From a virus, in the IMG/VR virus record IMGVR_UViG_3300028920_000159, positions 1 to 37,042 of that record: a stretch of DNA of 37,042 nucleotides; one strand, given 5' to 3'. Both the position numbers and the translations under genes were made by a program. The notes under the pieces are model-generated. The model saw nothing but the letters and a program-made list of their open reading frames with translations. It searched no databases and was not told where the DNA came from. Below, in pieces: positions 3,741 through 31,597 of this stretch (within the stretch, counting starts at the first letter, position 1; every line of letters starts with the position of its first letter).

Positions 3741-3743
3741 TAT

Positions 3744-6457: not shown

Positions 6458-6478
6458 ACCTCAAGCAAGGAGAAACCA

Positions 6479-6949: not shown

Positions 6950-6979
6950 TCGCTGAAAGTGGGGAGAATCAAAGAGCAA

Positions 6980-7007
6980 CCCGCGGGGTCAGAAATGACC
7001 TCGCGGG
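6980..7007 (+). other. 12-bp hairpin with GAAA tetraloop
   Basis: 6980-6991 pairs with 6996-7007 over 12 base pairs (one G-U) closed by a GAAA loop, a GNRA-type tetraloop. The sequence after it is atttcgac, so there is no real T-run. A ribosome site (caggagag) begins only a few bases downstream. This is the third hairpin in the series after the capsid gene. Confidence 0.65.
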
Positions 7008-7026
7008 ATTTCGACAGGAGAGGCAC

Positions 7027-7865: not shown

Positions 7866-8215
7866 ACCTGGACAGACGCCCAAGGAAAAGCCCTGCAACC
7901 AACCGCAGACACCTCGTATGGATAGAGCGGCGTACGCTCACCCGTGACGGTGAGGGCGGGTATACGGAAGCCTGGGCGCGCGTGGGCGGCTCTCAGATAT
8001 GGGCCAGCGTTTCACCTATCAAAGCCGTGCAGCGCCTGGATTATCAGAGCGTCGAGGTGGACGCCACGCACCTGCTGACGTTCGGCGGATACGACGACGT
8101 CGAGGAGAACGATCGCGTCTCGTTCGGGACCAGGACCTTCGAAATACTGACCATAGAGAACATTCAGGAGCGCGACTTTCTCAAGGTGTGCACGTGTAAG
8201 GAGATGCGGCCGTGA
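7862..8215 (+). CDS. head closure / head-tail adaptor protein
   Basis: 117 residues beginning at GTG 7862, overlapping the connector stop by 4 bases. It has the small beta-barrel pattern of SPP1 gp16/HK97-type closure proteins: VWIERRTLTRDGEGGYTEAWARV, then QIWASVSPIKA, then the EVDATHLLTFGGYDDVEENDRVSFGTRTFEILTIENIQERDFLKVCTCKE barrel. The D..V...DR(V/I).... R.(F/Y)EI... pattern followed by a short C-terminal strand is typical. It seals the connector after packaging and provides the surface for tail joining. Confidence 0.87.
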   Translation: MNLDRRPRKSPATNRRHLVWIERRTLTRDGEGGYTEAWARVGGSQIWASVSPIKAVQRLDYQSVEVDATHLLTFGGYDDVEENDRVSFGTRTFEILTIENIQERDFLKVCTCKEMRP

Positions 8216-8589
8216 CCACGTTCTCAACCAAGTACGTTACTCTGAAGAACTACGTCAAGCAGGTGGAGAAAGATATCTCCGCAGGCGAACGCAAGCGGCG
8301 CGCTGAGGCCGGTACGTACCTGAAGAGGAAGATCCGCGGCAAGATACGGAAGAGCGAAACCTCGCTCCCTGGTGAACCCCCCGGACGTGTCACAGGCAAC
8401 CTGCTGCGCGGGCTGGCCTCGAGGAACATGCGCTCGCAGACGATCGTCGGGTTCCGCCCTCCCGGGTATCATGCGCTGATGCTGGAGTTCGGCACCGAGA
8501 ACATGGCACCGCGGCCGGTGCTGTTTCCGACCATGGCAGAAGAAACGCCAACGCTGAAGAAAATTCTTTCGGGCCTGTGGGTGAAGTAG
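8212..8589 (+). CDS. HK97 gp10-like head-tail joining / tail component
   Basis: 125 residues from GTG 8212, overlapping the previous stop by 4 bases. Helical N-terminal half (KNYVKQVEKDISAGERKRRAEAGTYLKRKIRGKI), then the diagnostic SLPGEPPGRVTGNLLRGL segment with its PG.PP...TG.L pattern, a strand around IVGFRPPGYHALMLEFGTENMAPRPVLFPTM, and a short final helix. This combination is the HK97 gp10 family, a virion component at the neck or tail-completion step. It is the last of four closely coupled connector genes. Confidence 0.9.
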   Translation: MTTFSTKYVTLKNYVKQVEKDISAGERKRRAEAGTYLKRKIRGKIRKSETSLPGEPPGRVTGNLLRGLASRNMRSQTIVGFRPPGYHALMLEFGTENMAPRPVLFPTMAEETPTLKKILSGLWVK

Positions 8590-8608
8590 CAGAAGGGAAG
8601 AACGGGAA

Positions 8609-10252
8609 ATGCCAACGTACATATTCAGCGAAGGCCCAACAGGCGATCAGAGCGGAAACCACAAAGATACTCGAATATATGAGTACTTTAAGGCTCGCGC
8701 GTACGGCGGAGAGGCATATATCGAGATATCCAACGAGCCAGGGATAGACTCGTTCGGGCTTCTGCGGTTCGACGTTTCGGCAATTGACGGTTCAGAATCT
8801 GTAATCAGTGCGACACTGAGGCTGTACCTCGCCTACAATGGTTTGTCAAGCGATAGAAGCGTTGGTGCTCGTCCGCTAAGTACCGACTGGGGCGTTTCGG
8901 CCACGAGCGAGGGAAGCTCAGAAAACACGGCCACGGGCGGACAGGCAACATGGGACAACGCGTTTGACAACAACGGAAGCGATACCGGTTGGGCGGACGG
9001 CGAGGACGCTGGTTTTTCAAGTAACGACTATGGCGCTGAAGAAGATTCCGTAACCATGGGCAGCGCCGACGCTGTCGGCACAGCCTACGATTTTGATATC
9101 ACAAACATGGTGAAGGCGTGGGTCGCTGATTCTGACGACAACCACGGCGTACTGTTGCTCCCTGCCGGGTTTATGCAGGAGATTGTGCGCCTGGACTCGC
9201 AGGAATCAGCAACAGCGGCGGAACGTCCGATACTCACGGTTGAGACCGTTATCAGTTCAGCCTCCGAGTCGGCATCTGAGAGCGCCAGTGAGAGCGCTTC
9301 CGAGTCAGCGAGTGAAAGCGCTTCTGAATCTACTTCCGCTTCGGCTTCCGAATCGGCTTCACCATCAACGAGCGAGTCGGCGAGCGAGTCAACCTCGCCG
9401 AGCGCTTCTGAGTCGGCAAGCCCGTCAGAAAGCGAATCCGGCAGCGAAAGCGCGAGCGAATCAACATCAGAGAGCGCCTCGGAGTCGGTCTCTGAATCTG
9501 CTTCCGAAAGCGCCTCTGAGTCGACCAGCGAATCCGCTTCTGAAAGTGCTTCGGAGTCCGGAAGTGAAAGTGCCTCAGAGTCGGCCTCTGAATCAGCAAG
9601 CGAATCGGTGAGCGAGTCCGCGAGTGAATCGGCTTCTGAGAGTACCAGCCCTTCGGCGTCTGCAAGCTCCTCGCCAAGCGCGTCTGAGTCAACCAGCGAA
9701 TCCGCTTCTGAAAGTGCTTCGGAGTCCGGAAGTGAAAGTGCCTCAGAGTCTCTAAGCTATTCTGGCTCCACCTCGGCCTCGGCCAGTGCATCGCCAAGTG
9801 CACCGCCGACCTCGTGGAAAACGATCGAGGCCGTGCTGTACGAGACCCTGACGGCCGACACTGCCCTCGCGCACTATATCAGCGATTTCGAAGGCGCCCC
9901 GGCGATATTCAGCGACCTGGCACCCGAAGAGGTCAAAAACACGGACGTGTACATGGTGTTCCGGGCCGACCACCTGGGAGATGAGAATATCGCCGCCCTG
10001 GCGTTCAACATCTACATCGACATCTATGCCCGAAGCGCCAGCCGCGCGACGGTGCGCAAGATTGTGCGGCGCGTGAAGCTCGTGCTCGATCACGTGGCTT
10101 TGCGCGATCCGGATTGTGAATTTGACACCATTCGTCTGTACCTGTTCGACGCGGGCGCCGTGCCCGAGGGAGGAGAGTCTCAGAAGGTTCACTATAACCT
10201 GCAATTCACAGCTCGCGCCGGCCGCAAGGCGTGGGCCTCGCATCTCACATAG
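8609..10252 (+). CDS. DNRLRE-like / serine-rich stalk / tail completion fusion
   Basis: 547 residues in three parts. Residues 1 to about 214 resemble a DNRLRE-type beta-sandwich: FGLLRFDVSAI, SVISATLRLYL, then YDFDITNMVKAWVADSDDNHGVLLL and a final PILTVE. Residues about 216-400 are almost pure Ser/Ala/Glu with Pro, Thr and Gly (SASES, SPSTSES, GSES units). Residues about 403-547 (from WKTIEAVLYETLTADTALAHYI) look like a DUF3168/gp17-type tail completion protein, which the position between gp10-like and tail tube genes demands. Known family members are about the size of the C-terminal part alone, so the first 400 residues appear to be an added, virion-displayed adhesin and stalk. The N-terminal segment has more AT-rich codons than its neighbours. 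aagggaagaacggga precedes the ATG. Confidence 0.8.
   Translation: MPTYIFSEGPTGDQSGNHKDTRIYEYFKARAYGGEAYIEISNEPGIDSFGLLRFDVSAIDGSESVISATLRLYLAYNGLSSDRSVGARPLSTDWGVSATSEGSSENTATGGQATWDNAFDNNGSDTGWADGEDAGFSSNDYGAEEDSVTMGSADAVGTAYDFDITNMVKAWVADSDDNHGVLLLPAGFMQEIVRLDSQESATAAERPILTVETVISSASESASESASESASESASESASESTSASASESASPSTSESASESTSPSASESASPSESESGSESASESTSESASESVSESASESASESTSESASESASESGSESASESASESASESVSESASESASESTSPSASASSSPSASESTSESASESASESGSESASESLSYSGSTSASASASPSAPPTSWKTIEAVLYETLTADTALAHYISDFEGAPAIFSDLAPEEVKNTDVYMVFRADHLGDENIAALAFNIYIDIYARSASRATVRKIVRRVKLVLDHVALRDPDCEFDTIRLYLFDAGAVPEGGESQKVHYNLQFTARAGRKAWASHLT
9254..9811 (+). repeat. serine-rich SES repeat tract (first copy)
   Basis: About 185 codons of Ser-Ala-Ser-Glu-Ser type repeats. 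Serine codons of both kinds (TCN and AGC/AGT) are mixed, so the repeat is regular in protein but scrambled in DNA. The exception is an exact 58-base direct repeat: 9525-9582 is identical to 9693-9750, offset by 168 bases (56 codons), which points to an in-frame duplication. Confidence 0.9.
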
Positions 10253-10270
10253 CACAGCAAGGAGTGCAAA

Positions 10271-10600
10271 ATGGCGGAAATCACTGTTCAGCAGATCTCA
10301 ACCGATGGACTCGAGGCGGCCGCTGGCACAGCCGCAACGGCTGCAGGCGACACGTTCAAGAACAATGGCCGGACGTTTATCATTGTCGAGGACACGGGTA
10401 CCACAGCCCCGACCGTCACGATCAACAGCCTGGTCAACTGCAGCCAGGGCCACGACCACAATCTCAGCGTGGCAGTCCAGTCGGGCGAAATGCGTTATAT
10501 CGGACCGTTCCCGAAGGATCGTTTCAACGACTCGGACGGAATGGTTACGGTGACGTACGACGACGACACCGACGTGACGATTTCGGTTTTCTCACTCTAG
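10271..10600 (+). CDS. small virion protein, unrecognised
   Basis: 109 residues with an aaggagtgcaaa ribosome site. Beta-rich: TFIIVEDTG, PTVTINSLVNCSQGHDHNLSVAV, GEMRYIGPFPKDRFND and GMVTVTYDDDTDVTISVFSL. The IGPF....(F/Y)ND..G.V.VTYD....(V)...V..L ending recurs in small proteins next to tail tube or head decoration genes in phage genomes. A structural role is inferred from this and from its position between the tail completion and tail tube genes. Confidence 0.75.
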   Translation: MAEITVQQISTDGLEAAAGTAATAAGDTFKNNGRTFIIVEDTGTTAPTVTINSLVNCSQGHDHNLSVAVQSGEMRYIGPFPKDRFNDSDGMVTVTYDDDTDVTISVFSL

Positions 10601-10636
10601 CCTCGCGCCTGGAACGCGCGCAAAGGAGCCAAGACT

Positions 10637-11206
10637 ATGGCGACACATGGCATAACAACCAACACGTACAAGCGCTTTGTCATTGACAGCGGCGCAGTGT
10701 ACAAAAACTGGGGTGAGGCCGGAGAAGCACTCCTCGGCGCCACTCGCGGCGGCAACGTTTTCAAGATCGAAACCGAGCTCCGCATGATGGAAGTCGACGG
10801 AGCCCGGGGACCGGTCAAGGGCGGGAGGCGCATCACCAACGTGCTCGCGACCATAACGGCCAACTTCATCGAGGTGTCCGAGGAAATGCTTCTGCGGGCC
10901 CTTCCGGCTGCGGTGGCTGCGGACTATCCGGTGGCGCCGGCAACCAAGACGCACGACCTGATCACCAGGTCGACGGACGTCGCGGACGCCGACTACCTGA
11001 CGAACATTGCAATCGTCGGGGAGTCGACGTACTCGAGCACGAACAACATCGTCGTCGTGCTTGAGAACGTGCTGTCGGATGGCAACCTCGAGGTATCCTT
11101 CGCGGACAAGGACGAGTCGGTGATTGCTGTTACGTTTACCGCTCACTACCTCCCGAGCGCCATCGACACCGAGCCGTGGAAGATATACAACCCGGTGATC
11201 GGATAG
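10637..11206 (+). CDS. major tail tube protein (probable)
   Basis: 189 residues. It lies exactly where the tail tube gene is expected: after the tail completion gene and immediately before the frameshifted tail chaperones and tape measure. The layout fits a tube protein: an N-terminal arm (TYKRFVIDSGAVYKNWGE), the GATRGGNVFKIETELRMMEVDGARGP strand and loop region, then strands in ITNVLATITANFIEVSEEML and NIVVVLENVLSDGNLEVSF, ending with AVTFTAHYLPSAIDTEPWKIYNP. That (V/I)TF.AHY......PWKI ending is common in siphophage tail tube proteins. An aaaggagccaagact ribosome site precedes the ATG. Confidence 0.75.
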   Translation: MATHGITTNTYKRFVIDSGAVYKNWGEAGEALLGATRGGNVFKIETELRMMEVDGARGPVKGGRRITNVLATITANFIEVSEEMLLRALPAAVAADYPVAPATKTHDLITRSTDVADADYLTNIAIVGESTYSSTNNIVVVLENVLSDGNLEVSFADKDESVIAVTFTAHYLPSAIDTEPWKIYNPVIG

Positions 11207-11238
11207 CCTGATCACCACAACGTCAAGGAGCTGAAGCA

Positions 11239-11736
11239 ATGAGCGACACCGTCACACAGTCAGGTGAGAAGCAGTACACTATCCACCCCCTGAAAAAGAA
11301 GGATCAGAGGGTGGTCGCGGCAATGTTTGGCAAGCTCGCCGACGAGTTCGACGAGCCTGCCATTCGCCGTATTATCTCGAGTGGGTTCAGCGACGACGAG
11401 GGCAAAGCGGACAAGGAAACCGCGGACGACCGGAAGGCCAGGCTCGTGCATGTGTTCTTCGAGCTGTTCCGCAAGTGCCTGACAAAGCTCGCTGTCGACG
11501 CCGAGGAGTGGTTGGCGTCACTGATCGGCGTGAGCGTTGAGGAGTACCAGGAGCTGCCGATCGACATTGACGTCCAGATCCTGAATCAGGTCAAGGAGGC
11601 GCCCGAGGTAGAGCGTTTTTTTACTGGAGCATTGCGGCTATTCAGCGCGACGCAGGCGTTAGACAAAGCCTTGTCTCAGTTGAAAAGCTCGTACGCTTCC
11701 GCCTTCGGATCACAGCAGGAGAGCTCGACGGACTGA
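11239..11736 (+). CDS. tail assembly chaperone, zero-frame product (gpG-like)
   Basis: 165 residues. Acidic and helical, positioned between tail tube and tape measure as lambda gpG is. It has a short N-terminal strand (KQYTIHPLKKKDQRVVAAM) followed by helices. Codon 127 onward reads TTT TTT within the slippery run at 11616-11622. Ribosomes that do not slip continue 38 codons to the TGA at 11734-11736. Chaperones of this kind coat the tape measure and recruit tube subunits. The acidic helical content and the frameshift site support the assignment more strongly than any residue motif. Confidence 0.85.
   Translation: MSDTVTQSGEKQYTIHPLKKKDQRVVAAMFGKLADEFDEPAIRRIISSGFSDDEGKADKETADDRKARLVHVFFELFRKCLTKLAVDAEEWLASLIGVSVEEYQELPIDIDVQILNQVKEAPEVERFFTGALRLFSATQALDKALSQLKSSYASAFGSQQESSTD
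11616..11622 (+). promoter_or_regulatory. -1 frameshift slippery site T TTT TTT
   Basis: Seven consecutive T's occur in the phase required for a -1 slip: codons cgT TTT TTT act. After a one-base slip the next codon is tac at 11622. That frame stays open for 131 codons to 12017 and encodes a sensible helical protein. U UUU UUU is an established -1 slippery heptamer. The location in the overlap of the two chaperone genes is the textbook one for tailed phages. Confidence 0.9.
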
Positions 11737-12017
11737 CATTCGAGGAATTCATCTTTACCGCTGACATGATCGAGGAGGAAAGGGCGGCGCGGTTCAAGGA
11801 CGACATGACCTGCGCCGCCTTTGTTGGTTGGCAGATGGGACGTTTCCAGGGGAGCATCAGCGAGCATACGACGTTTCCGAAGTACCTCAAGACGTGCGGG
11901 CTGCTCGACGGTCCGCCGCCAATGACGGAAGAAGAGCGCGCGGCAATGGTGGCCAAGGCCATGGAGAAGGCAAGCAAGATCAGAGCGGCATTTCAACCGG
12001 AGCGGGTGAATGAGTAG
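11622..12017 (+). CDS. tail assembly chaperone, -1 frame extension (T part of gpGT-like)
   Basis: This is the -1 frame half of the frameshift product. The 128 codons of 11239-11622 joined to these 131 give a 259-residue fusion. The extension reads YWSIAAIQRDAG, then RITAGELDGLTFEEFIF, then ADMIEEERAARFKDDMTCAAFVGWQMGRF, and ends MTEEERAAMVAKAMEKASKI before the stop. No stop occurs between the slip site and 12017. The first internal ATG (11766) lies 144 bases downstream of the slip and lacks a ribosome site, so independent translation is unlikely. The last 8 bases overlap the tape measure start. Confidence 0.87.
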   Translation, partial: YWSIAAIQRDAGVRQSLVSVEKLVRFRLRITAGELDGLTFEEFIFTADMIEEERAARFKDDMTCAAFVGWQMGRFQGSISEHTTFPKYLKTCGLLDGPPPMTEEERAAMVAKAMEKASKIRAAFQPERVNE

Positions 12018-14445
12018 AGAAGTATTCAGTCTGATCGGGCGGATTCGTACCGAGGGGTTCGGGGCGGTTAAGAAGGAACTGAGCGTCCTCGACAAGAACA
12101 TCACGAAGGCCGCGAACAGAATCGACAAGTTTGGCCGCGACGTTGGCAAGATCGGCGTCAATATGGCCAAAATGACGGCACCGATCGCCGCGCTCGGGGT
12201 GGCTGCATATAAGAGCGTCGAGCTCGTCACCGATCTGAATGAGACCATCTCCAAAACCGGCGAGATATTCGGGGACGCTGCCGGACAGATTGACGACTGG
12301 AGCAACTCCGCCGCGCAGGCGTTTGGCATGTCGAAGCAGCAGGGCATGGATGCCGCAAGCACGTTCGCGATATTTGGGAAGTCGGCCGGGCTGTCGGGGG
12401 ATCGTCTGGCCACCTTCTCGACGAACTTCGTGCAGCTGGCTGCCGACTTTGCATCATTCCACAACGCGAAGCCGGAGGAAGCCATCACGGCGATCGGCGC
12501 CGCCCTCCGGGGAGAGAACGAGCCGATACGCCGGTTCGGTATTCTACTCGACGATGCAAGCATGCGCGCCGAAGCTCTGAAGCTCGGGCTCATTGAGACC
12601 ACGAAGCAGGCGCTCACGCCGCAGGAGAAGGTCCTGGCGGCTCAGTCGCTCATATACAAGCAGTCGGCCGATGCACAGGGCGATTTCCTGCGCACCTCCG
12701 ACGGCCTGGCAAACCAGACGCGTATCCTGAAGGCCGAGATCATAGACATGGCCACAGCGTTCGGTCAGGCGTTCCTCCCGGCTGCTCAGCAGGTCATGAC
12801 CCTGATCCGAACCAAGCTGCTGCCGGCAGTGAAGGGCGCCGTCGAATGGTTCACGAACCTGTCCCCCGAACTCAGAAACACCATGATAATGTTCGGCGGG
12901 ATTGCGGTCGCTATCGGTCCGCTGCTGATTGGTATCGGGAAGCTGATTGGGCTGGTTAAGACGCTTTGGGTGACTGTGCAGCTGCTTAATGCGACAATGT
13001 TGGCGAACCCGATCGGGCTCATTATCACACTGATCGGACTGTTGGGAATTGGTGTTGTTGCTCTGGTGAAAAACTTCGACACTGTCAAGGCGGCCTTTGT
13101 TGATCTGTTCTGGGAGATTCTATATGCCACGCGTCAAACGGTGAGCTATGTCCGCCTGGCGCTTTTTAAGGTCGTGGCGTGGATGATCGGGGTTGCCAAA
13201 GTTGCGGCGAAGGTCATACCAGGGATGGCCGATAAACTCGCATACCTCGAGGCACAGATGAAGTCGTTGGCTGCTGCTGAGGATGAGCAGATCAAGCGTC
13301 GGCGACGATTCCGGGCCGAGTCAAAGGCAGCGGCACAGGACACCGAAAAGCTCGCCAAGGCAGTCGAGAAGGCCAAGGAGGAAACGAATAAGTACTCAGC
13401 CACACTTCCCGAGCTGATCAAGACACGGAAGCGCGACACCAAGGCAACAGACGACCAAGCGAAGGCCGAGAAGAAGCTGTCCGAAGAGCGGGCGAAGTTC
13501 TCGGAGGGGTGGACTGACAAGCTGCGCGAGCAGATCATGACCCGGTCGCAGTTGCTCGAATGGGAGTACAGAGACGCCCTTTCACGTGCTGAAGAGCTCG
13601 GAGCAAGCCGGCAGGACATAGAGCTGTACTATCACATACAGCGCCTGAGACTGGCCGAGGAGGAGGCCAACGAAAAGGCACGTCTCGCACAGAAGGAAGT
13701 CGACGACCGCAAGGAAAAACTTCAGCTTACGAAGAGCCTGGCCATGCAGGCGGTCGATCAGATATTCGCGCTTATGGCCGCCGCGACAGACAACGAGATC
13801 GCCCGTATTGACCAGGCAGCCGAGAAGCGCAAGGCCGCGATCGACGAGAGTGTCCTCGGCGAGGAGGAGAAGGAACGGCAGAAGGCCGCAATCGACGAGC
13901 AGGCCGAGAAGAAGAAGCGCAACCTCATGCGCGAACAGGCCAAGCGCGACAAGGCCGCGGCGTACTTCGCCGCCATTATCAACACGTTCCAGGCCGTCAG
14001 TAAAGCCCTGACGCTCGGGTTCCCGCTCGGCCTGGTCATGGCGGTGCTGTTCGGGGTTCTCGGGATTGCGCAGGTCGCCGCAATAGCTGCCGAGCCCCTG
14101 CCACAGCTCGCCCGTGGTGGCGTTGTGAAGCGAAGCCAGGGCGGGACCGCGCTCGTGGCCGGCGAGGGTGGCGAGGACGAGATGATCCTTCCCATGCAAA
14201 CGGGCGTCCGTCGAGTCGTTGGCGACGTTGTAAACGGCATACGCAGCGCTTTGGCGGGGCCTGAACTTCCGGGCTCCCTCGCGCACGGACGGCCGGCTAT
14301 GGGCGGTGTCGGTGCCGGCAGTGGCGGCGGGGGGGTCCACTTCCATATCGGGACGCTTATTGCTGATGATAGCGGTATGCGAGAGCTGGAGCGACGGCAG
14401 CTGAAGTTCAGAAACCAGGAGAAGATCCGGAAGGGTGAAATCTGA
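12010..14445 (+). CDS. tail tape measure protein
   Basis: 811 residues, the largest helical protein in the window. N-terminal coiled coil (KKELSVLDKNITKAANRIDKFGRDVGK), then a tape-measure core rich in Ala/Gly with DAASTFAIFGKSAGLSGDRLATFSTNFVQLAADFASF, typical of phage tape measure domains. Hydrophobic segments occur around residues 295-325 and 335-360 and near residue 665-690 (FPLGLVMAVLFGVLGIAQVAAI). A long charged coiled coil lies between about 410 and 640. The end has the family-like QLARGGVVKRSQGGTALVAG and GEGGEDEMILPM segments. Using about 1.5 angstrom per residue, known for siphophages, the tail would be near 120 nm. It overlaps the chaperone stop by 8 bases. Confidence 0.93.
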   Translation: MSREVFSLIGRIRTEGFGAVKKELSVLDKNITKAANRIDKFGRDVGKIGVNMAKMTAPIAALGVAAYKSVELVTDLNETISKTGEIFGDAAGQIDDWSNSAAQAFGMSKQQGMDAASTFAIFGKSAGLSGDRLATFSTNFVQLAADFASFHNAKPEEAITAIGAALRGENEPIRRFGILLDDASMRAEALKLGLIETTKQALTPQEKVLAAQSLIYKQSADAQGDFLRTSDGLANQTRILKAEIIDMATAFGQAFLPAAQQVMTLIRTKLLPAVKGAVEWFTNLSPELRNTMIMFGGIAVAIGPLLIGIGKLIGLVKTLWVTVQLLNATMLANPIGLIITLIGLLGIGVVALVKNFDTVKAAFVDLFWEILYATRQTVSYVRLALFKVVAWMIGVAKVAAKVIPGMADKLAYLEAQMKSLAAAEDEQIKRRRRFRAESKAAAQDTEKLAKAVEKAKEETNKYSATLPELIKTRKRDTKATDDQAKAEKKLSEERAKFSEGWTDKLREQIMTRSQLLEWEYRDALSRAEELGASRQDIELYYHIQRLRLAEEEANEKARLAQKEVDDRKEKLQLTKSLAMQAVDQIFALMAAATDNEIARIDQAAEKRKAAIDESVLGEEEKERQKAAIDEQAEKKKRNLMREQAKRDKAAAYFAAIINTFQAVSKALTLGFPLGLVMAVLFGVLGIAQVAAIAAEPLPQLARGGVVKRSQGGTALVAGEGGEDEMILPMQTGVRRVVGDVVNGIRSALAGPELPGSLAHGRPAMGGVGAGSGGGGVHFHIGTLIADDSGMRELERRQLKFRNQEKIRKGEI

Positions 14446-14813
14446 TGGCGCTCAACGACATATATCTCGGTGAAAGCGGCTCTGAGGTCCTTCTCAGCGC
14501 GTTTGCTCGCGAGTTCACACAGAGGCGTATCGAGGTGTCCAGGGAGGACAGGACGGCGTCAGGGCGCCTTGTGAAGGACATTAGGGCAATTAAGCTCGGG
14601 TTCTCCATTTCGTACGACATGATCAGCCATACCGACCTCACGGTGATTGCCGACCTGTACGACCTCGAGGACGAGCTCAGCCTGATTGTGACGCGTCCCG
14701 ATTTCAGCCAAGACACATACACCGTGCTGCTTAAGCCCTTCGACCAAACCCGCGTAAAGAGCGTCGGGTGTGGGTATTGGGGCGGGGTAGCCCTGGAGCT
14801 CGAGGAGACATGA
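14445..14813 (+). CDS. minor tail protein, unrecognised
   Basis: 122 residues whose ATG shares one base with the tape measure stop. Mixed alpha/beta: RRIEVSREDRTASGRLVKDIRAIKLGFSISYDMISHTDLTVIADLYDLEDELSLIV, then TYTVLLKPFDQTRVKSVGCGYWGGVALELEE. A strand-rich protein with an EDRTASGRLV...K..F.ISY.......V....L...D..L...V pattern directly after the tape measure suggests a tail-tip component such as a reduced distal tail protein. The assignment is from position and strand pattern only. Confidence 0.7.
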   Translation: MALNDIYLGESGSEVLLSAFAREFTQRRIEVSREDRTASGRLVKDIRAIKLGFSISYDMISHTDLTVIADLYDLEDELSLIVTRPDFSQDTYTVLLKPFDQTRVKSVGCGYWGGVALELEET

Positions 14814-15110
14814 ATGGAAGGCGCGGACGGGCTGACTCTGACTATCGGTGCTGCCGGCCTTGTGGCCGTCGGGGGGGTTGTCGTGAAACTCGTTGAGGCA
14901 ATCGTCGCATGGATGGCAAAGCGGAACAACAACGGGAACGGGACGCTCAAGGGGTACATCAGCCGCGAGGACTGCCGTGATAGTATCGGCAAAATCGAGG
15001 CCCGTTTCGACCGGACCGACACGCGGATCGGGGAGCTGCATGATAAGGTCAATGACACAAACGAGAAGCTCGCCGAAATGCGCGGGTACCTGGGAAGGCA
15101 TCTAGGATAG
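14814..15110 (+). CDS. membrane-anchored coiled-coil protein (holin-like candidate)
   Basis: 98 residues starting directly after the previous stop. Residues about 6-34 form one hydrophobic segment (LTLTIGAAGLVAVGGVVVKL and the following VEAIVAWM). A polar NNNGNG hinge follows, then a heptad-like helix (CRDSIGKIEARFDRTDTRIG and ELHDKVNDTNEKLAEM). One membrane span plus a soluble coiled coil is seen in small phage lysis proteins, but here the membrane part is N-terminal, unlike XhlA. It is the best single holin candidate in the late region. A membrane tether for the tail-glycosylation enzyme downstream is an alternative. Function uncertain. Confidence 0.65.
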   Translation: MEGADGLTLTIGAAGLVAVGGVVVKLVEAIVAWMAKRNNNGNGTLKGYISREDCRDSIGKIEARFDRTDTRIGELHDKVNDTNEKLAEMRGYLGRHLG

Positions 15111-15118
15111 GGGGAACA

Positions 15119-17290
15119 GTGAGCAGGGTTTCGGTTATCATAGCCGGGCGAAATGAGAAGTACTTTCAACAGACCGTCGATTCCGTTTTGGAGTCGGCGG
15201 TCGGTGACGTTGAGGTCGTCGCCGTTGTCGACGAGGAGGAGTACTCCGGAGAGCTCGCAACAGACGACCCGTACGCGCGCCACAGCCTGCACTCTGACGA
15301 CCCGCGCGTGCGTATCATTCGCCTCGAGAAGGCTATCGGCCAGCGGGCCGGGTACAACCTGGGCGTCCGGGAGTCGACCGGCGAGCACGTCATGAAGATC
15401 GACGCGCATGCCCTGCTCAGCAAGGGTTTCGACGAGGAACTCAAGAACTGCTGCGGAGACAAGGACGTTGTTCTGCCGGAAATGCGCCGGCTGAACGTTC
15501 GGGAGTGGGCACCGAAGCGGGGCGGGGAAGCCATACACATGTACTTCGGGCTCGATATGTACTGCCATTACTGGCGGGACAGAACGAAAGCGAACACCGA
15601 GAAGTGCCCGGAGATCATGACCGGACAAGGATCGTGCTGGTTCTGTACCCGGGAGTGGAATGATCGTATCGGTCTCCTCGACGAGGGCGTCGGGTCCTGG
15701 GGGAACGTCGGAATCGAGATATCGCTCCGCACGTGGCTGCAGGGTGGTCGGCAGATATGTTGTACGACAGCCTGGCAGGCTCACTATTTCCGCAAGGACG
15801 ACGGCGGATTTCCGTATTCGCTGACCGGGCGGGACGTTGCGCGCGCGCACCGGTACACGCGTGAGCGGTACTTTTTCAACGATGCAGCCTTCGAACACCA
15901 GACCAGGCCGTTCGGCTGGCTGGTTCGAAAGTTTCAACCGCCAGGATGGGAGGCGTATCTCGTGGACTCGTTCAAGTCGCCCCGGGTGATAGTGTACTAC
16001 ACTGACTCGCAGCTGCAGCCGGAGCTCGCCAACGCTGTCAGGAAGCGGATCAAGAAGGTGTGCGGGCCGATCCCGATTATCAGCGTATCGCAGGAGCCGC
16101 TCAAGTTCGGGCGAAACGTCTGTATCGGGGAGCAGCCGCGCAAGTATAAGAGCGTGTACGAGGCCCTCCTCGCAGGCGTGAAGGCGGCGCCGGAGGGGTC
16201 GATCGTGTACCTGCTCGAGCACGACGTGTTCTATCACCCGTCGCATTTCGCGTTCCTGCCGGCCGAGCACGGGGTTCTCTATTTCAACGACAACCGGTAT
16301 TACTATCACCTGGGCTGTGACACGTTCGACCTTGCCCGGGGGAAGTGTGCGCTCTCGCAGTGTGTGGCATGGCGCGATGATATCATACAGCACGCCGAGG
16401 AGCGGCTCGCGGTTGCCGGCGACGACATGACCGAGTACTTCGAAACCTGGCAGAAGCGCAGCAGCCTCAAGACTCAGGGGTTCAGCTCAGATCGGCCGAA
16501 CGTCGATATCCTGCACGGGCAGAACCTGACGCTCCGGGGCAAAATGAAGAACGAATATATCCGCGGCAAGCGCAAGGGAATAGCGAACCTTCCAGGATGG
16601 GGCCGGGCTCCGCATTTCCGCAGCGTGACCGGGTACCGCAGGCAGGAGTCGAAACCGGCGCCGGCCAAGAAGGCGGTCTCGGTGAGGACGGGCGAGGTCG
16701 ACGTGGCGCAGGTACTGCAGCGCAAGTTCCGCAAGCTACTCCCGCAGGTGTCTCCGGTGCGCGCCCGGAAGGTCGGGCGGTCCTGGCTGCCGGAGCTGTT
16801 TCGAACCTGTCAGTTCACGAAGGGCGCCGAGATAGGGGTCCGTAAGGGCGAGTTCTCTGAGCTGATCTGCAAAGCAAACCCGACCGTTGAGCACATGTGC
16901 GTCGACCTCTGGCGGCCGTACTATATCCACAACAGCCAGAAGAGACACGACTCGCACCTGGCAGAAGCGAAGCGCCGGCTCAAGCCGTACCGGGTGCAGT
17001 TCGTGAATATGCCGAGTATGGAAGCCGCGCGAAACGTGGAGGACGAAAGCCTCGACTATGTGTACATCGACGCCGATCACCGGTTCGACTTTGTCATGGA
17101 GGACCTGATCGCGTGGGGTCGAAAGGTCCGGCCGGGCGGGATCGTGAGCGGTCACGACTACTATCGTTTCCGCAATGCGGGCGTGGTCGATGCTGTAGAC
17201 CTGTATACTCGGATGCATGGTGTGCAGGAATGGTTTGTGACGGATGAGAAAGAATCGAGCTTCTTCTGGGTGAAGCAATATGGCTGCTGA
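15119..17290 (+). CDS. three-domain glycosyltransferase / methyltransferase
   Basis: 723 residues from GTG 15119 after a taggggga ribosome site. Domain 1 (about 3-285) is a GT-A transferase: VSVIIAGRNE start, DAH at 95-97 (DxH metal motif), WGNVGIEISLRTWLQGG at 194-210 and AHYFRK at 221-226. These match the Gal/GalNAc motif and metal histidine of polypeptide GalNAc-transferases (GT27) in order. Domain 2 (about 288-530) has a separate YLLEHDVFY acidic motif near 367-369 and may be a second transferase. Domain 3 (about 545-720) is a class I SAM methyltransferase: GAEIGVRKGEFS loop near 568, YVYIDADHRFDFVMEDL near 647, and RPGGIVSGHDYY. It lies in the tail operon, overlapping the tail hub gene by 11 bases. 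I infer protein or virion glycan synthesis in the host cytoplasm. Confidence 0.85.
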   Translation: MSRVSVIIAGRNEKYFQQTVDSVLESAVGDVEVVAVVDEEEYSGELATDDPYARHSLHSDDPRVRIIRLEKAIGQRAGYNLGVRESTGEHVMKIDAHALLSKGFDEELKNCCGDKDVVLPEMRRLNVREWAPKRGGEAIHMYFGLDMYCHYWRDRTKANTEKCPEIMTGQGSCWFCTREWNDRIGLLDEGVGSWGNVGIEISLRTWLQGGRQICCTTAWQAHYFRKDDGGFPYSLTGRDVARAHRYTRERYFFNDAAFEHQTRPFGWLVRKFQPPGWEAYLVDSFKSPRVIVYYTDSQLQPELANAVRKRIKKVCGPIPIISVSQEPLKFGRNVCIGEQPRKYKSVYEALLAGVKAAPEGSIVYLLEHDVFYHPSHFAFLPAEHGVLYFNDNRYYYHLGCDTFDLARGKCALSQCVAWRDDIIQHAEERLAVAGDDMTEYFETWQKRSSLKTQGFSSDRPNVDILHGQNLTLRGKMKNEYIRGKRKGIANLPGWGRAPHFRSVTGYRRQESKPAPAKKAVSVRTGEVDVAQVLQRKFRKLLPQVSPVRARKVGRSWLPELFRTCQFTKGAEIGVRKGEFSELICKANPTVEHMCVDLWRPYYIHNSQKRHDSHLAEAKRRLKPYRVQFVNMPSMEAARNVEDESLDYVYIDADHRFDFVMEDLIAWGRKVRPGGIVSGHDYYRFRNAGVVDAVDLYTRMHGVQEWFVTDEKESSFFWVKQYGC

Positions 17291-20200
17291 TTTTGTACAT
17301 GCGATATTCAAACGCGGCGATAAGATAACCGCTCCGGGGAAAGAGTATCTCGGGATCAAGGATGGCATGCTGGTCACGTGGCACGACCCGGACGTGTACG
17401 ATCCCAAGTTCTCCGCATGGATGCAGCGCGTTTTTTTCTGTGTCAAGCTAAAGCGCGATCTGCTTCCGAAACTGATCGCGGGTGTTCAAGAAAGCCAGAA
17501 CGCGGCCGACGGGGCCGTCGACAAGAAAACCTATCTCGCGCGCATGGCCGCAATCGACATTGCGGAAGTCGAGAGAGTGGCGGGAATTTCGGGCCTTTCC
17601 GCTGACATGGCATCTGCCGAGATCATTCCCGAGCTGGATCTTACAGCAGGTAGCGAGAAGCTGATCAAGGTGCCGACACTGCAGGCCCCGACAGTCCGCG
17701 ACGTGATGAGTGTTTCGAGTGGAGCGTATGGCGTCGGAAGCGGGGACGACTACAGCGACTGGATCAGCGCGAGAGCCGATATCGCCAATCTCACAAACGA
17801 TCTGAGCTTCACTCAGTCGAGCGCCTTCACCCTTAATGGTGGCTCGAACATTTCGGAGTCTCTCAACGGGCATGCGCTGACCTTTGATTCTGACACGCCC
17901 CCGGCTGGCGATCCGACTTCTGGACTCATTACGTCCATAGATTACGAGGGGTATCTATTCGGCGATTTCCAGGAGGGGGCGGGCGAGACAGTATACGAGG
18001 GGCTCTACTGGAAAAGAATCCTCGCCGGTTCAAACGAAGACGCTTCTTGTATCACTACGTCGAGCGTGAGCACCGGATTTGACCTGGTTATCAGGAAGTG
18101 CATGATAGACGGCAACGGGCATATCGGCTGCGGAGTTCGTGCCGCGGATGCTGATGTGACACACTACATCTACAACAATGTGATCTGGAGTTTCGACGGC
18201 GCGAGCGGCGACGCATACGGTCTCCACCTGGACGCTCTCCACTCCTCGTCTGTGATTGAGAATAACACGATATACAGCATTGGCGGGACGAGCTCTGCTG
18301 GTATCGATGCTGAAAACAACGCATGCACGATTCGGAATAACGCAGTATACGACTGTACAAGCTGTTTCCTGGCCGTTGGATCGGCAACCGGAAACAACAA
18401 CGCGGCAAGCGATACCACAGGAGAAGATGGGGACTTCTCGAGTGGATCAGGAAACCAATCGTCGCGCAGCGCCGCGACTGATTTTGAAAGCACCACTGAC
18501 ACCGTCGCTGCGTTCCTGAACATTGCCAGCGGTGGCGGTCTAAAGTATGCAGGAAACGCAACCATACTCGGTGGTAACACTACCGGCATACGCGGGAACA
18601 CCCGGCCGGTTTCCGGTGAAAATCCCTCAATCGGAGCCGCAGAAGTCAATCCGGGCTCCTCTTCTGCTTCTGCCAGCGAAAGCGGAAGTGAAAGTGCGTC
18701 GCCCTCAACATCAGAGTCGGCCTCTGAAAGCAGCTCGCCCTCGGCTTCAGAATCAGCCAGCCCGAGCACGTCTGAAAGTGCAAGCCCGTCAGCTTCCGAG
18801 TCCGGCAGCGAGTCCGCCTCAGAATCAGGCAGCGAGTCAGCAAGCCCCTCGGCAAGCGAGTCGGGATCTGAGAGTGCTTCCGAATCTGGCAGCGAAAGCG
18901 CGAGTGAATCGGGCTCAGAGTCCACCTCCCCCTCGACCAGCGAGTCGGCAAGTGAGAGCCCCTCAGAGAGTGGCTCAGAGTCTGCCTCAGAGAGTGCCTC
19001 GCCGTCGGCTTCTGGTGGCGGTTCTGCTTCCGAGTCGGCCAGTGAGTCGGCATCATACAGCGGGTCAGCATCAGAGAGCGCGAGCGAGTCGGCCAGCCCG
19101 TCCGGGTTCCCGACGTTTGACGAGGCAGCGGCGCTCACCGTGCGCAAGTGGGTCGGGCGTGTTACGGTCTATTGGGGCGGGGCCCTGCTGGACAACATCG
19201 AAGTCACATGGCCGGGGACCGTCGCAAACTGGCTCATGGACGAGGTCCCGCAGCTTCCCCCACAGATAGCCAACGGGGTGGACACAGTCGCGTACAAGTG
19301 GTTCCGGTGCGACGGGGTGGCCACGCTCGACGACATGGTCCTGGCGCCCGGAGACGAGGCCGCAGCGGCTCTCTACGAAATGGGATGGTGGGGCGGCACG
19401 TTCGCCGGTGCCCTGGGGGCATTTACCGACCCGCAGTACCTGCGGCTCCGCCTGGTCGAGCAGGCCGTGGCGACTGTTACGGTTGCCGGCGACGCAGCCC
19501 TCGGCGAGTACCCTGTCGACTTCACGATCAAGGTGTTCAGCGGTGTGGGCGGTTCCGTGCTCGAGGACGAGGTCGCGGTGACAGGAAACGCTCAGGTCAG
19601 CCGCGACGTATCTGTCGGGCCGGTGTCGGAAGCTACTGCCGTACTGCTGACGATCACGAAGTGGAGCGACGCCGATGCGGTGATCAAGATATCGGAGCTC
19701 TTCACCTCGGCTTCCGCGGTGTACGATGGCGACGAGATCATGACGATGAACGTGTTCGAAGAGAACGAGATCAAGAACGCAACGCTTCCGACCGGGAACA
19801 TTGCAGCGAATGAGCTCGAGCTCGCTCTGAACAACGTCGACGACAAGTTCTTTCCGGCCAACGACCTGGCGCCGTATCATGCCATGGTCCGGAAGAACCG
19901 CAAGATCGTCGCCGAGATCGGGCTTGTGATACCCGACGGCGGCGGGACCGAATACATTGCCATGGGCACGTACTGGAGTGGGGACTGGAAGGTCTCCGAG
20001 GGCGGCACAACCGCTTCGACCACGGCAATGGACCGCCTCGGCCGGCTGCAGAAAATGACGTTCTCCACCAGCGAGGTCTATTTCGACTACACGATCGGAC
20101 AGCTGATCGACGTGGTTATGACCGCGGCACGGCTGCAAATGTTCGATCTTGAGTACGAAGTCGACGCCGAGCTGTACGGCGACGACTACACAATACCCGT

Positions 20201-21113
20201 TGCGTGGTTCCCGAAGGTTTCGTTCTTCGAAGCCCTCAACACGCTGTCGGGCGCGTGCCTCGGGTCTATCTACGTGGACCGCCAGGACGTTATCCAGTGT
20301 GAAGCCCCGGCCGAGATCGGCGCGTACGAGTACGAGCTCACTGCTGACGACTATTACGAGCGCCGGCAGCCGGAGGAATCGGAGAGCGTCGAGAACCGTA
20401 TCGAGGTCACAACGCAGCCGCTGCGCCTGGACCCGGACGAGGGCGAGGGCGTCGAGGTGTACCGGTCCAGCGAACCGCTCACCCTCGAGGTCGGCGAATC
20501 GCTCGAGAAGCTGATTGAGTACAGCGACAAGCCGGTCGACGGCGCAGTCTTTTCCGTCGAAGCAACAGACGGGTCCTCTTTCGTCGGTTCGGTAACGGTC
20601 AACAACTCGTATGCGTGGGGAGCTGAGCTCACCGTTGAGTGCACGACGGCCGGAGAATTCGAAATCGTGGCGGAGGGCGACCTGTACACGGTCGATGGGA
20701 AAGAGGTCGTCGTGAAGATCGACAACGACAGCCAATTCCAGTACGGCGAGCAGCGGTACGCCCTGAAGGACAACCCGCTGATCCAGACCGAAGCGCTTGC
20801 CACCAAGATCGCGGAGACGCTTCTGGAGACATACCGGGACCCGTCGCGCGACATAGAACTGAACTGGCGCGGGAACCCGAATGTCAAGCTCAACACGGTG
20901 ATCCGCGCGCCGGAGTACGTCCGCGGCGCCGTCAGCAATAAGTCTGATTTCGTGGTATTCAAGCAGAAAACGATCTTCGACGGGACACTGTGCGCAACGC
21001 TCAGCGGTCGACGCGTGCGCGAGACGAATCTGGTTGTCGTCCAGGACACGGACGGCAGCGGATACGATATTCAGGATACGGACGACAGCGGGAATATCGT
21101 CTGGCAGGACTAA
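17280..21113 (+). CDS. beta-helix / serine-rich stalk / tail hub fusion
   Basis: 1277 residues. Residues 1-110 are a mixed domain. About 125-455 read as a right-handed beta-helix: repeated short turns such as THYIYNNVIWSFDG, SSVIENNTIYSIGG, ACTIRNNAVYDCTS, ending RGNTRPVSGENPSIGAAEV, the usual end of pectate-lyase-like helices. About 458-608 are Ser-rich SES/SPSTSES/GSES repeats. About 610-1277 look like a phage tail hub or tail-associated structural protein: NVFEENEIKNATLPTGNIAA, ELELALNNVDDKFFPANDLA, then MGTYWSGDWKV and the FFEALNTLSGACLGSIYVDR domain. The order after tape measure and before fibre genes fits a baseplate hub. The beta-helix could bind or cut a surface polysaccharide. No catalytic residues were identified. 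Confidence 0.8.
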   Translation: MAADFVHAIFKRGDKITAPGKEYLGIKDGMLVTWHDPDVYDPKFSAWMQRVFFCVKLKRDLLPKLIAGVQESQNAADGAVDKKTYLARMAAIDIAEVERVAGISGLSADMASAEIIPELDLTAGSEKLIKVPTLQAPTVRDVMSVSSGAYGVGSGDDYSDWISARADIANLTNDLSFTQSSAFTLNGGSNISESLNGHALTFDSDTPPAGDPTSGLITSIDYEGYLFGDFQEGAGETVYEGLYWKRILAGSNEDASCITTSSVSTGFDLVIRKCMIDGNGHIGCGVRAADADVTHYIYNNVIWSFDGASGDAYGLHLDALHSSSVIENNTIYSIGGTSSAGIDAENNACTIRNNAVYDCTSCFLAVGSATGNNNAASDTTGEDGDFSSGSGNQSSRSAATDFESTTDTVAAFLNIASGGGLKYAGNATILGGNTTGIRGNTRPVSGENPSIGAAEVNPGSSSASASESGSESASPSTSESASESSSPSASESASPSTSESASPSASESGSESASESGSESASPSASESGSESASESGSESASESGSESTSPSTSESASESPSESGSESASESASPSASGGGSASESASESASYSGSASESASESASPSGFPTFDEAAALTVRKWVGRVTVYWGGALLDNIEVTWPGTVANWLMDEVPQLPPQIANGVDTVAYKWFRCDGVATLDDMVLAPGDEAAAALYEMGWWGGTFAGALGAFTDPQYLRLRLVEQAVATVTVAGDAALGEYPVDFTIKVFSGVGGSVLEDEVAVTGNAQVSRDVSVGPVSEATAVLLTITKWSDADAVIKISELFTSASAVYDGDEIMTMNVFEENEIKNATLPTGNIAANELELALNNVDDKFFPANDLAPYHAMVRKNRKIVAEIGLVIPDGGGTEYIAMGTYWSGDWKVSEGGTTASTTAMDRLGRLQKMTFSTSEVYFDYTIGQLIDVVMTAARLQMFDLEYEVDAELYGDDYTIPVAWFPKVSFFEALNTLSGACLGSIYVDRQDVIQCEAPAEIGAYEYELTADDYYERRQPEESESVENRIEVTTQPLRLDPDEGEGVEVYRSSEPLTLEVGESLEKLIEYSDKPVDGAVFSVEATDGSSFVGSVTVNNSYAWGAELTVECTTAGEFEIVAEGDLYTVDGKEVVVKIDNDSQFQYGEQRYALKDNPLIQTEALATKIAETLLETYRDPSRDIELNWRGNPNVKLNTVIRAPEYVRGAVSNKSDFVVFKQKTIFDGTLCATLSGRRVRETNLVVVQDTDGSGYDIQDTDDSGNIVWQD
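18651..19106 (+). repeat. serine-rich SES repeat tract (second copy)
   Basis: About 150 codons of the same Ser-rich repeat type as the tail completion fusion, with more Gly and Pro (SGSES, SPSTSES, SPSASES). Serine is encoded by mixed TCN and AGY codons. It separates the beta-helix from the tail hub part. Two tracts of the same unusual composition in different structural genes of one phage suggest a shared origin or gene conversion. Confidence 0.88.
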
Positions 21114-23695: not shown

Positions 23696-24247
23696 ATGCT
23701 CAAGGTGGCTATCTATCCCGGACACGTCGGCAAGGACAGCGGCGCGATCGACACGACCGACGAATACGCCGGCGACGAGTTCCACGCCATCGAGGCGGTT
23801 GTGACGTGGGGCATTGCGGACAAAGTGGCCGGACTGCTCTGCTGCATGGGCATTGATCACACGATCGGGATCGGCTCGTTTGACAACCGGATCGCCGATA
23901 CCCGCGATTGCACCATGGGAGTATCAATTCATGCGGACTCGTTCCACGATCGAACGGCTCACGGGTTCCACGTGATACACTACCCTGGCAGCGTTGCGGG
24001 CGGTTTGCTGGCCGACTCGATCGACGAGTGTCTCTCTGTGTTCGGGCACCGGAACCGCAAGCCACACGCGCGGCGTGACCTGGCAATTCTGCGCGACACG
24101 TCGTTTCCGTGTGCCCTGGTTGAGTGTGGTTTCATCAGCAACCCCGAGGAAGAGGCTGTGCTCATGCTGCGCACCAAACAGTACCGCCTCGCGTGGGCAA
24201 TCGTCGGCGGGATCGTGCGGTACGTATTTGGGAAGGAGAAACCATGA
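23696..24247 (+). CDS. N-acetylmuramoyl-L-alanine amidase (Amidase_3)
   Basis: 183 residues from ATG 23696, chosen because an aaggggat ribosome site precedes it; a longer frame runs back into the previous gene. Zn-dependent LytC/AmiC-type amidase: first ligand His in IYPGHVGKDSGA (residue 9), second Glu in FHAIEAVV, third His in GVSIHADSFHD, and the catalytic Glu in CALVECGFISNPEEE near the C-terminus. It cleaves the bond between muramic acid and the peptide stem. There is no signal peptide or separate wall-binding domain, so export through a holin or direct virion use is implied. The stop overlaps the lipase start. Confidence 0.92.
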   Translation: MLKVAIYPGHVGKDSGAIDTTDEYAGDEFHAIEAVVTWGIADKVAGLLCCMGIDHTIGIGSFDNRIADTRDCTMGVSIHADSFHDRTAHGFHVIHYPGSVAGGLLADSIDECLSVFGHRNRKPHARRDLAILRDTSFPCALVECGFISNPEEEAVLMLRTKQYRLAWAIVGGIVRYVFGKEKP

Positions 24248-24918
24248 TGCACACCCTTGAGCGCCGTATCGTTGATTTTGCTGAGCTCAGCCGGTCGGCT
24301 CGTCCGGGCGGTGATTGGGGCGATTTGCAGCCGAGGTTCTTCGAGTGCAAGGAAACCGACGTGCAGTTCTTCTTCCTGGACCTGCCACGCGAGTACGTGT
24401 TCGTGTTCCCGGGTACCGACCCGAGAAGCGCGAAGGACTGGACAACGAACTTCATGTTCGCCAAGCGGGTGATCCCGTACGGGAACCAGAACAGCAAGAT
24501 CCGCGTTCACCGCGGGTTCCTGCGGGGGTACAAGTCGGTCCGGAAGAAGGTACACGGGTGCGTCCGCAACTACGTCACCGAGAACAAGCCGATCGTCGTG
24601 GTCGGCCACAGCCAGGGCGGGGCGTTCTCCTTCCTCGGGGCGGTTGACATTCAATGGAACATGCGAGAGGGGGACCTGCAGGAGCGCCGGCGCGAGGTGT
24701 ACGCCATCACGTTCGGCGCCCCTCGGGTCGGGAACAAGGCTTTCCGCAACTCCTACGTCGTGCGAGTGAAACGGACCTGGCGCTACGCGGGCGCGTTCGA
24801 CGTCGTGACGCGTGTGCCGTTCGCGTGGCTCGGTTTCCGGCACGTCGGGCAGCTGGTTCGGCTGGCCTGCCGGCACGACATTCGCAAGTACATTCGGGAG
24901 CTGAAGAAAAAGCGCTAG
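24244..24918 (+). CDS. class 3 lipase (alpha/beta hydrolase)
   Basis: 224 residues from ATG 24244, which overlaps the amidase stop (ATGA) and has a gggaaggag ribosome site. Lipase_3 signs in order: EYVFVFPGTDPRSAKDWTTN, where the oxyanion region precedes the WTTN segment; VHRGFLRGY; the nucleophile elbow VVVGHSQGGAFSFL with its Ser; YAITFGAPRVGNKAF; the Asp-bearing FDVVTRVPF; RHVGQLVRL; and the His of CRHDIRKYIREL. The full triad appears present. There is no signal peptide or membrane segment. Coupling to the amidase suggests envelope lipid attack at lysis, as in mycobacteriophage lysin B, which is a different fold family. Substrate unknown. Confidence 0.87.
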   Translation: MMHTLERRIVDFAELSRSARPGGDWGDLQPRFFECKETDVQFFFLDLPREYVFVFPGTDPRSAKDWTTNFMFAKRVIPYGNQNSKIRVHRGFLRGYKSVRKKVHGCVRNYVTENKPIVVVGHSQGGAFSFLGAVDIQWNMREGDLQERRREVYAITFGAPRVGNKAFRNSYVVRVKRTWRYAGAFDVVTRVPFAWLGFRHVGQLVRLACRHDIRKYIRELKKKR

Positions 24919-25325
24919 TCGCCCGGGGTAGGGTGCACGTCGATCGTGTCTCCCATGACGTCGCTCGAGGCCGGATCTGAGATCCTGATACTCCAATACC
25001 ACCTCACAGTATCAGCCGCGGTACCCGCGTCACGCGTAAACCGCATTGAGGCGCCGAGATCGAACCATTCGTACGAGGTGTCGACGTTCCACGTGTGGAC
25101 GTGGGGGAGTTCGGCGTACGGGTTCAGGAGCCCGTTCCCGCTCGGGTAGCTGATATCCTGCCAACAGGTATCCAGCAGGGACCATTCATCATACGTGCCG
25201 GCCGGAGCATGCAGTACCACGGTGACGAGTGTTCCGTCCGTGTCCGATGGTCCGAGGCTTGTCGGTGAGTTCTCGGTGCAGCCAAGTATCAGCGCCACGA
25301 GTGACAGCGTGAGCAGGTACCGCAT
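24915..25325 (-). CDS. small phage lipoprotein (only minus-strand gene)
   Basis: 136 residues. ATG 25325 is preferred over GTG 25331 because gggagg lies 5-6 bases upstream of the ATG. Residues 1-15 form a signal peptide (MRYLLTLSLVALILG) followed by lipobox Cys16, so the mature protein would be lipid-anchored with Thr next to the Cys. The mature part is strand-rich with conserved-looking aromatic spacing (LLDTCWQDIS, TWNVDTSYEWFDLG, VRWYWSIRIS). The stop codons of this gene and the lipase face each other in one CTAG at 24915-24918. It may be a lysogeny-independent moron such as a superinfection-exclusion lipoprotein. Not a unimolecular spanin: no C-terminal membrane helix. Confidence 0.78.
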   Translation of the reverse strand: MRYLLTLSLVALILGCTENSPTSLGPSDTDGTLVTVVLHAPAGTYDEWSLLDTCWQDISYPSGNGLLNPYAELPHVHTWNVDTSYEWFDLGASMRFTRDAGTAADTVRWYWSIRISDPASSDVMGDTIDVHPTPGD

Positions 25326-25537
25326 AGCCACCTCCCTGGTTGTGTGTGAACCCCATAATGGTACATCGAAACGGGCCCGGGCGCAAGCGGCACAGCCGGT
25401 TCCGTCCGTTCGTGCGGTGCTTGCCTGTTCCCTTTGTTGTCATTTCCGCAAGACCACATTTCTGGTTTCCCCTCTGTAGCGGCTCGGCGCCGGCGAGCTG
25501 GTCGATTTAGCATTTCCGACAAAGTGCAGCACCCCCC

Positions 25538-30500: not shown

Positions 30501-30520
30501 CCAAACCACAGGAGGGAAGC

Positions 30521-31597
30521 ATGGCAGGCAAAGGCCAGGCCAACGCAGTCGAAGTAGCATCACCCCGGGTTCCGGAGCCGTCCGCGGCTTTGTTGCAGGC
30601 AATCCAGAACATGCCACCGCGGAACATGAGCGAGGTCAAGGAGAATATCCTGGCGTCGGTGGCCGAAAGCCCCTCTCTCGCTCGGGCCTGTTTCTACTGC
30701 AAGCCCGTCGGGAAGCGGGGGAACTTCCAGCAGTTCAGCGTCGGGCCGAGTATTCGGTTCGCTGAGCTCGCGCATCAGCATTTCGGGTATCTGTGGGTGC
30801 GCACATACGTGGCCGAAGAGACACCGGTCGGGCCGAAGAAGAACAACAAGGTACAGCCCGGCACGGTCGTGACCGAAACGGTCGTGTTTGACCTGAAAAC
30901 CGGCAATATCACCAGCGCCATGGACTCGAGCCCGGTCTACAGCGAGAACCGTCGCGACACGGCAATGGACCGGTCGAGGTCTCTGTCTCGCCGTGACGCT
31001 ATACGGGACCTGGTCCGGCCGCAGTACGAGGCGATCGAGCGCCAGCTCAAGCAGGGTGTGATCCTCGGGTTCTGCCCGGAAGGCACAAAGGAGGAAGAAC
31101 GCCTGCAGCAGGCCCGAAAGCAGCTGTGGGTGTACCTGAAGCGCAAATTCGAGAAGCTGAACGTCTCCGAGCACCAGCTTTCAAACATGGTGCAGGCGGA
31201 GCAGACGATCGACGACGGGTACGTGAAGCTCCTCGGGATACTGAACTGGCTCAACGACGGGAACGCCGACAAGGTGCACGAGGTGTTCCCTCCCTGCAGC
31301 AAGCCGCCTGTCAAGGACTGCGAGGAACTCAAGGACGCGCCGGCAGAAGAGACGCCGGCCGAAGCAGCCGAGAAGGAAGTCGCCGAACCCAAGAAGAAGG
31401 CCGAAACGGTCGATCCGCGCGTGGAATTCGAACAGCGGGTGATGGGTCAGGCCAGGAAGGCGAACCTCACTGTCGACCAGATCAACGACATTATCGCGGC
31501 TGAGTTCGACACAATCGGCGGGCTTGGCGCCGTTGCCGAGAGCGACTTCGACCGCGTGCACGACCATTTCCTGGCTATGGCCGAAGGGAAGGGCTGA
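30521..31597 (+). CDS. recombination-associated protein, unrecognised family
   Basis: 358 residues from ATG 30521 with a caggagggaagc ribosome site. The N-terminal 230 residues show LLQAIQNMPPRNMSEVKENI, then FQQFSVGPSIRFAELAHQHF and a strand series (YLWVRTYVAEE, VVTETVVFDLKTGN). A Lys/Glu/Ala-rich linker (about 262-300) leads to a final helical domain (VMGQARKANLTVDQINDIIA). A GPSIR(F/L)AE segment followed by an aromatic strand resembles proteins found beside phage exonucleases that I suspect to be single-strand annealing factors, but I cannot name a family. The next gene is a RecB-like nuclease, which supports that guess. Confidence 0.6.
   Translation: MAGKGQANAVEVASPRVPEPSAALLQAIQNMPPRNMSEVKENILASVAESPSLARACFYCKPVGKRGNFQQFSVGPSIRFAELAHQHFGYLWVRTYVAEETPVGPKKNNKVQPGTVVTETVVFDLKTGNITSAMDSSPVYSENRRDTAMDRSRSLSRRDAIRDLVRPQYEAIERQLKQGVILGFCPEGTKEEERLQQARKQLWVYLKRKFEKLNVSEHQLSNMVQAEQTIDDGYVKLLGILNWLNDGNADKVHEVFPPCSKPPVKDCEELKDAPAEETPAEAAEKEVAEPKKKAETVDPRVEFEQRVMGQARKANLTVDQINDIIAAEFDTIGGLGAVAESDFDRVHDHFLAMAEGKG

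Follow-up and report, generated by a model that had tools for sequence, protein, structure and literature searches.

An amidase gene overlapping a class 3 lipase gene at the end of a tailed-phage late operon: a probable accessory lysis lipase

Phages need to breach each layer of the host envelope and, to our knowledge, enzymatic attack on a lipid layer during lysis has been little studied outside the mycobacteriophages. In that group the esterase LysB is described as essential for efficient lysis (PMC5707550), and in a Pseudomonas syringae phage a GDSL lipase gene lies upstream of the holin and endolysin genes (PMC12173070). With these precedents, a lipase in a lysis cassette is an already known kind of arrangement. 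No earlier description of a Lipase_3 gene beside an Amidase_3 gene, the arrangement treated here, was found in the literature searched.

The window (the whole stretch of DNA analysed, 37,042 bases) is an entire phage record of the tailed-phage type. Its late operon runs in tailed-phage order from the small terminase (206) through the large terminase, portal, protease, major head protein and tape measure to the tail and fibre genes, which reach 23681; its last genes are Amidase_3 (23696-24247) and then Lipase_3 (24244-24918). After the lipase comes a convergent ORF for a lipoprotein-like protein, with small ORFs and replication genes further on. Neither tRNA genes nor a direct terminal repeat were found in the record. 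The features that bear on the argument are as follows.

12010-14445, in the late operon: tape measure gene.
14814..15110, + strand: candidate holin or inner-membrane spanin, 98 aa, a weak assignment from hydropathy.
23696..24247, + strand: N-acetylmuramoyl-L-alanine amidase (Amidase_3), probable endolysin, 183 aa (Pfam PF01520, PHROG 435).
24233..24247, + strand: ribosome-binding site AAGGAG, lying within the amidase gene, and the ATGA shared by stop and start, read from the sequence.
24244..24918, + strand: class 3 lipase (Lipase_3), probable accessory lysis lipase, 224 aa (Pfam PF01764).
24915-25331, - strand: lipoprotein-like ORF; its lipobox is LILGC, and it shares 4 bases with the lipase gene at the stop of the latter.

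Within the tail gene block, 15119-17290 (+) encodes a family 2 glycosyltransferase and a Methyltransf_24 domain fused in one protein. The virion-region proteins of 8609-10252 and 17280-21113 (both +) carry long SASES-type serine/glutamate repeats, and the first of them has a weak match, slightly under the cut-off, to a Disaggregatase-related repeat domain.

Both members of the pair are real genes, with family scores far above the cut-offs. The amidase matches Amidase_3 at 84.1 bits (cut-off 27; 1.6e-23) and the endolysin family PHROG 435 at 2.6e-22; the lipase matches Lipase_3 at 86.6 bits (cut-off 22; 1.9e-24) over profile positions 1-137 of 140, and also matches PHROG 21992, esterase/lipase. 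The lipase ATG (24244-24246) overlaps the amidase TGA (24245-24247), the common bases being the ATGA at 24244-24247, so that the 4-base overlap of the original prediction stands; a further in-frame ATG at 24247 would serve equally well as the start. The amidase-lipase observation itself is real and far beyond chance. With an overlapping start and a strong ribosome-binding site of its own, the lipase would be translated from the amidase's message.

Four amidase residues, His10, Glu33, His79 and Glu143, are retained in the sole close relative (G017, described below), and from family knowledge we take them to be candidate zinc and catalytic residues. The lipase motifs GHSQGG (Ser123), FDVVTRVP (Asp186) and CRHDIRKY (His211) had been put forward as a full apparent triad, and the alignment of 11 phage sequences bears this out in letters, not in activity: Ser123 and Asp186 never vary, and His211 reaches at least 90% conservation. 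The Ser123 and Asp186 stretches also align with Rhizomucor miehei lipase, while the register of His211 comes from sequence conservation, the VIA-align ranges being insufficient by themselves. The putative triad Ser123-Asp186-His211 thus appears intact. Trp66 (in Asp65-Trp66) lies in a segment aligned with the lid helix of the Rhizomucor miehei enzyme; Thr58 lies in the oxyanion position, and both assignments follow the lipase literature.

An AlphaFold2 model of the lipase was built from an alignment of the window and virus-contig sequences (mean pLDDT 74, with lower certainty in the lid region and parts of 141-210). Its best structural match is feruloyl esterase A (2ix9; Z 23.9, 204 of the 224 residues, rmsd 2.3), with fungal class 3 lipases at Z 20 to 22.6 and the Enterobacter cloacae type VI secretion lipase effector 9cys at Z 13.5. 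The model supports an alpha/beta hydrolase fold of the class 3 lipase kind, a statement about fold and not about substrate; the feruloyl esterase among the best matches makes lipid a less certain substrate. Feruloyl esterase acts on esterified polysaccharide, and according to the discussion in PMC12173070 Bacillus phage phiNIT1 has a lipase that is released at lysis and degrades extracellular polymer. Both points favour an unlikely reading, in which the window's lipase is freed at lysis to deacylate host surface polymers, vesicles or debris, aiding the escape or spread of progeny while being dispensable for membrane rupture. They are opposed by the solved structures nearest in sequence, which are triacylglycerol lipases, by the alignment of the Trp66 segment with a lid helix and by the absence of a carbohydrate-binding module from the lipase.

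A scan with the portal protein gave 68 virus loci, and the 44 longer records were then searched whole. Lipase_3 occurs in just one of these 44, G017 (IMGVR_UViG_3300028840_001027), whose portal is 65% identical to the window's and which also encodes an Amidase_3. There, too, the lipase gene immediately follows the amidase gene, and the two occupy the position behind the fibre genes that they have in the window. The amidases are 66% identical and the lipases 54-55%. AAGGAG is retained in G017, and the probable lipase ATG lies 5 bases past the amidase stop. Lipase identity at codon positions 1, 2 and 3 is 0.65, 0.71 and 0.50, the third position being less conserved than the first and second, which is the pattern that purifying selection would leave. 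Both records have a convergent gene beyond the lipase, for the lipoprotein-like protein in the window and for a zinc-ribbon protein in G017; this difference suggests that the lipase was kept with the amidase and not as a piece of a longer frozen block. The coupling of lipase to endolysin that had been proposed is therefore upheld by the conservation of the pair in the sole related record with Lipase_3. The G017 portal gene region (L068:2330-3754) is interrupted in its given frame by two stop codons, possibly assembly errors.

It counts against a lysis role that the pair is held by one relative only and that Lipase_3 is missing from all 16 records in which a related amidase was found, although these absences are weak evidence because many of the records are fragments. 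A single-protein scan of virus contigs found no close lipase relatives; alignment scans found the cyanophage types, L024 and G017. We give next to no credence to the lipase being a chance passenger (a moron) that is not firmly tied to lysis: it is missing from 43 of the 44 portal relatives and from all 16 amidase relatives, but the same pair in the same order in G017, with a lipase 55% identical and a substitution pattern of purifying selection, argues otherwise. Very improbable, too, is a virion-associated pair for entry, with tail-borne amidase and lipase opening the envelope from outside. The two genes do directly follow the tail and fibre genes, but the end of the late operon is the customary place of an endolysin, and the products are small stand-alone enzymes with no fusion to a structural domain and with no virion-anchoring domain detected in Pfam and PHROGs searches.

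The original prediction held a Lipase_3 enzyme in a lysis cassette to be uncommon, and the family is itself rare in phages: a search of 50,697 phage records, with E 1 as the limit, gave matches in 11, mostly cyanophages. CrV and Cr-LKS4 have the lipase gene ahead of dCTP deaminase, P-SSM2 has it among unknown genes and a methanogen virus has it in an early region. Since most other phage copies are away from lysis genes, the family, judged by its gene neighbours, also has other roles in phages. Homologues in such places had been named beforehand as grounds for giving up the lysis role. That is where most of them are, but they are just 23-31% identical to the window's lipase, which weakens a family-wide lysis role more than it weakens the role of this gene. 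The same placement among metabolic or unknown genes in most cyanophages and in the methanogen virus speaks for an auxiliary part in lipid metabolism, where the enzyme would remodel or mobilise lipids in the infected cell and its place after the amidase would reflect late-operon position only; a role in host glycerolipid metabolism has been proposed for a distant lipoprotein-lipase homologue of a cyanophage (PMC9964418). We find this distinctly unlikely for the window, in view of the location at the end of the late operon, the translational overlap with the endolysin and the retention of the pair in G017 despite a changed next gene.

Endolysin families occur in 2 of 70 neighbours of lipase loci in the PHROGs scan, both being phage lysozymes, in L036 and L039. 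There the lysozyme gene is followed by one for a holin-like DUF6450 membrane protein, which has hydrophobic segments at its N terminus, then by the lipase gene and by one for a small protein that has an N-terminal hydrophobic segment and a 4-base overlap with the lipase stop; L036 and L039 are nearly identical and so count as one lineage. In L032 the same lysozyme and DUF6450 protein lie upstream of the lipase. This cluster is a separate and independent case of Lipase_3 associated with lysis genes, in a minority of the cyanophages.

Several other loci collected with the lipase have features of their own. A small protein overlaps or abuts the 3' end of the cyanophage lipase in L032, L036, L039, L004, L023, L037, L038, L052, L053, L055, L058 and L064-L066; these proteins are hydrophobic or combine a transmembrane segment with a coiled coil, and may be membrane partners of the lipase or spanin-like. 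At 781-2463 of L024, a 43.8-kb virus contig, the lipase directly follows a reverse transcriptase gene, which reads as the diversity-generating type, with an integrase-like gene adjacent. MT836410.1 (L155), a tblastn match labelled Bacteriophage sp., was rejected as a phage lipase; it resembles a VgrG/type VI secretion locus, apparently bacterial, that encodes a lipase-domain effector.

Neither a holin nor a spanin was found beside the amidase-lipase pair, and no membrane protein adjoins the amidase in the late operon. The candidate at 14814-15110 has a single N-terminal hydrophobic segment and a charged tail, with no family match; G017 has a 77-aa protein of similar layout at the same slot. 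The role of outer-membrane spanin was weighed for the lipoprotein-like ORF at 24915-25331 and rejected: the ORF is on the opposite strand, has no inner-membrane partner and is missing in G017. It is possibly a lysogenic conversion or exclusion gene.

Neither a signal sequence nor a membrane span was seen in the amidase or the lipase, and the lipase is highly basic (pI about 10.5, and 10.3 in G017, with no membrane segment in either). We hold with modest confidence that it is an accessory lipase for lysis, a cytoplasmic and very basic enzyme which is freed together with the amidase and then hydrolyses lipids of the host membranes. The two enzymes would form a lysis module closing the late operon, in which the amidase, as the endolysin, would cut the peptide off the glycan chain of peptidoglycan. 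The lipase would accumulate in the cytoplasm until a holin opened the inner membrane and released both together. Its high positive charge might draw it to anionic phospholipid, where the Ser-Asp-His triad with its lid-like segment could hydrolyse acyl esters of membrane lipids and so hasten the collapse of the remaining membranes. We infer here the catalysis, substrate, holin release, effect and lysis role of the lipase, and the whole suggests a virus that opens its host by digesting membrane lipids besides the wall.

The original prediction further took the lipase as a hint of the host's envelope type. That link is unsupported: the searches pointed to no host, an export signal is absent from both proteins and the fold holds no substrate information. 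An alignment search of genome contigs found no lipase relatives. The portal scan of the same contigs found mostly Firmicutes, with portals only about 50% identical, which permits no host call. Window positions 1-20000 had no plasmid DNA match, and neither the helicase nor the protein of 30518-31597 gave a host clue.

As a doubtful generalisation, class 3 lipases may have been recruited on more than one occasion by phages whose hosts are not mycolate-bearing, to serve specifically in lysis as a third enzymatic activity besides holin and endolysin that may replace spanins. The lineage of the window would exemplify this by its amidase-lipase pair, and the cyanophages by a set of lysozyme, holin-like protein and lipase together with a small membrane protein whose gene overlaps the lipase stop. 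Two related phages with a Lipase_3 gene fixed beside the endolysin gene, and unrelated cyanophages with one near a lysozyme gene, make a simple testable case, and the lipase might be paired with endolysins to which an outer membrane is a barrier.

Among known systems, the fungal lipases of the Rhizomucor miehei type and feruloyl esterase A share with the window's lipase the fold over 204-207 residues, the Ser and Asp stretches and a lid-like helix, but they are secreted eukaryotic enzymes, whereas the phage lipase is smaller, highly basic and without a signal sequence. The type VI secretion lipase effectors (E. cloacae, 9cys) have a related lipase fold, there used against bacterial rivals; they depend on delivery by a secretion machine and on an immunity partner, neither of which is in the window. 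The cyanophage class 3 lipases (P-SSM2, CrV, PHROG 21992) belong to the same Pfam family and have the triad letters, and three related contigs cluster the gene with lysozyme and a holin-like protein, yet they are only about 23-31% identical to the window's lipase and most copies are not beside lysis genes. The GDSL lipase of the Pseudomonas syringae siphophage is likewise a phage lipolytic enzyme with its gene beside those of holin and endolysin, there with a Gram-negative host; it differs in belonging to the GDSL family, in an extra carbohydrate-binding module and in lying upstream of holin and endolysin, whereas the window's Lipase_3 follows the endolysin. LysB, the mycolyl-arabinogalactan esterase of mycobacteriophages, is of another sequence family: the window has no cutinase or LysB match, in Pfam to E 1 or PHROGs to E 0.1, and nothing found points to a mycolate host. 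LysB too, however, is a serine esterase of the lysis cassette, encoded beside the endolysin and acting much as a second enzyme of lysis would, on a lipid layer.
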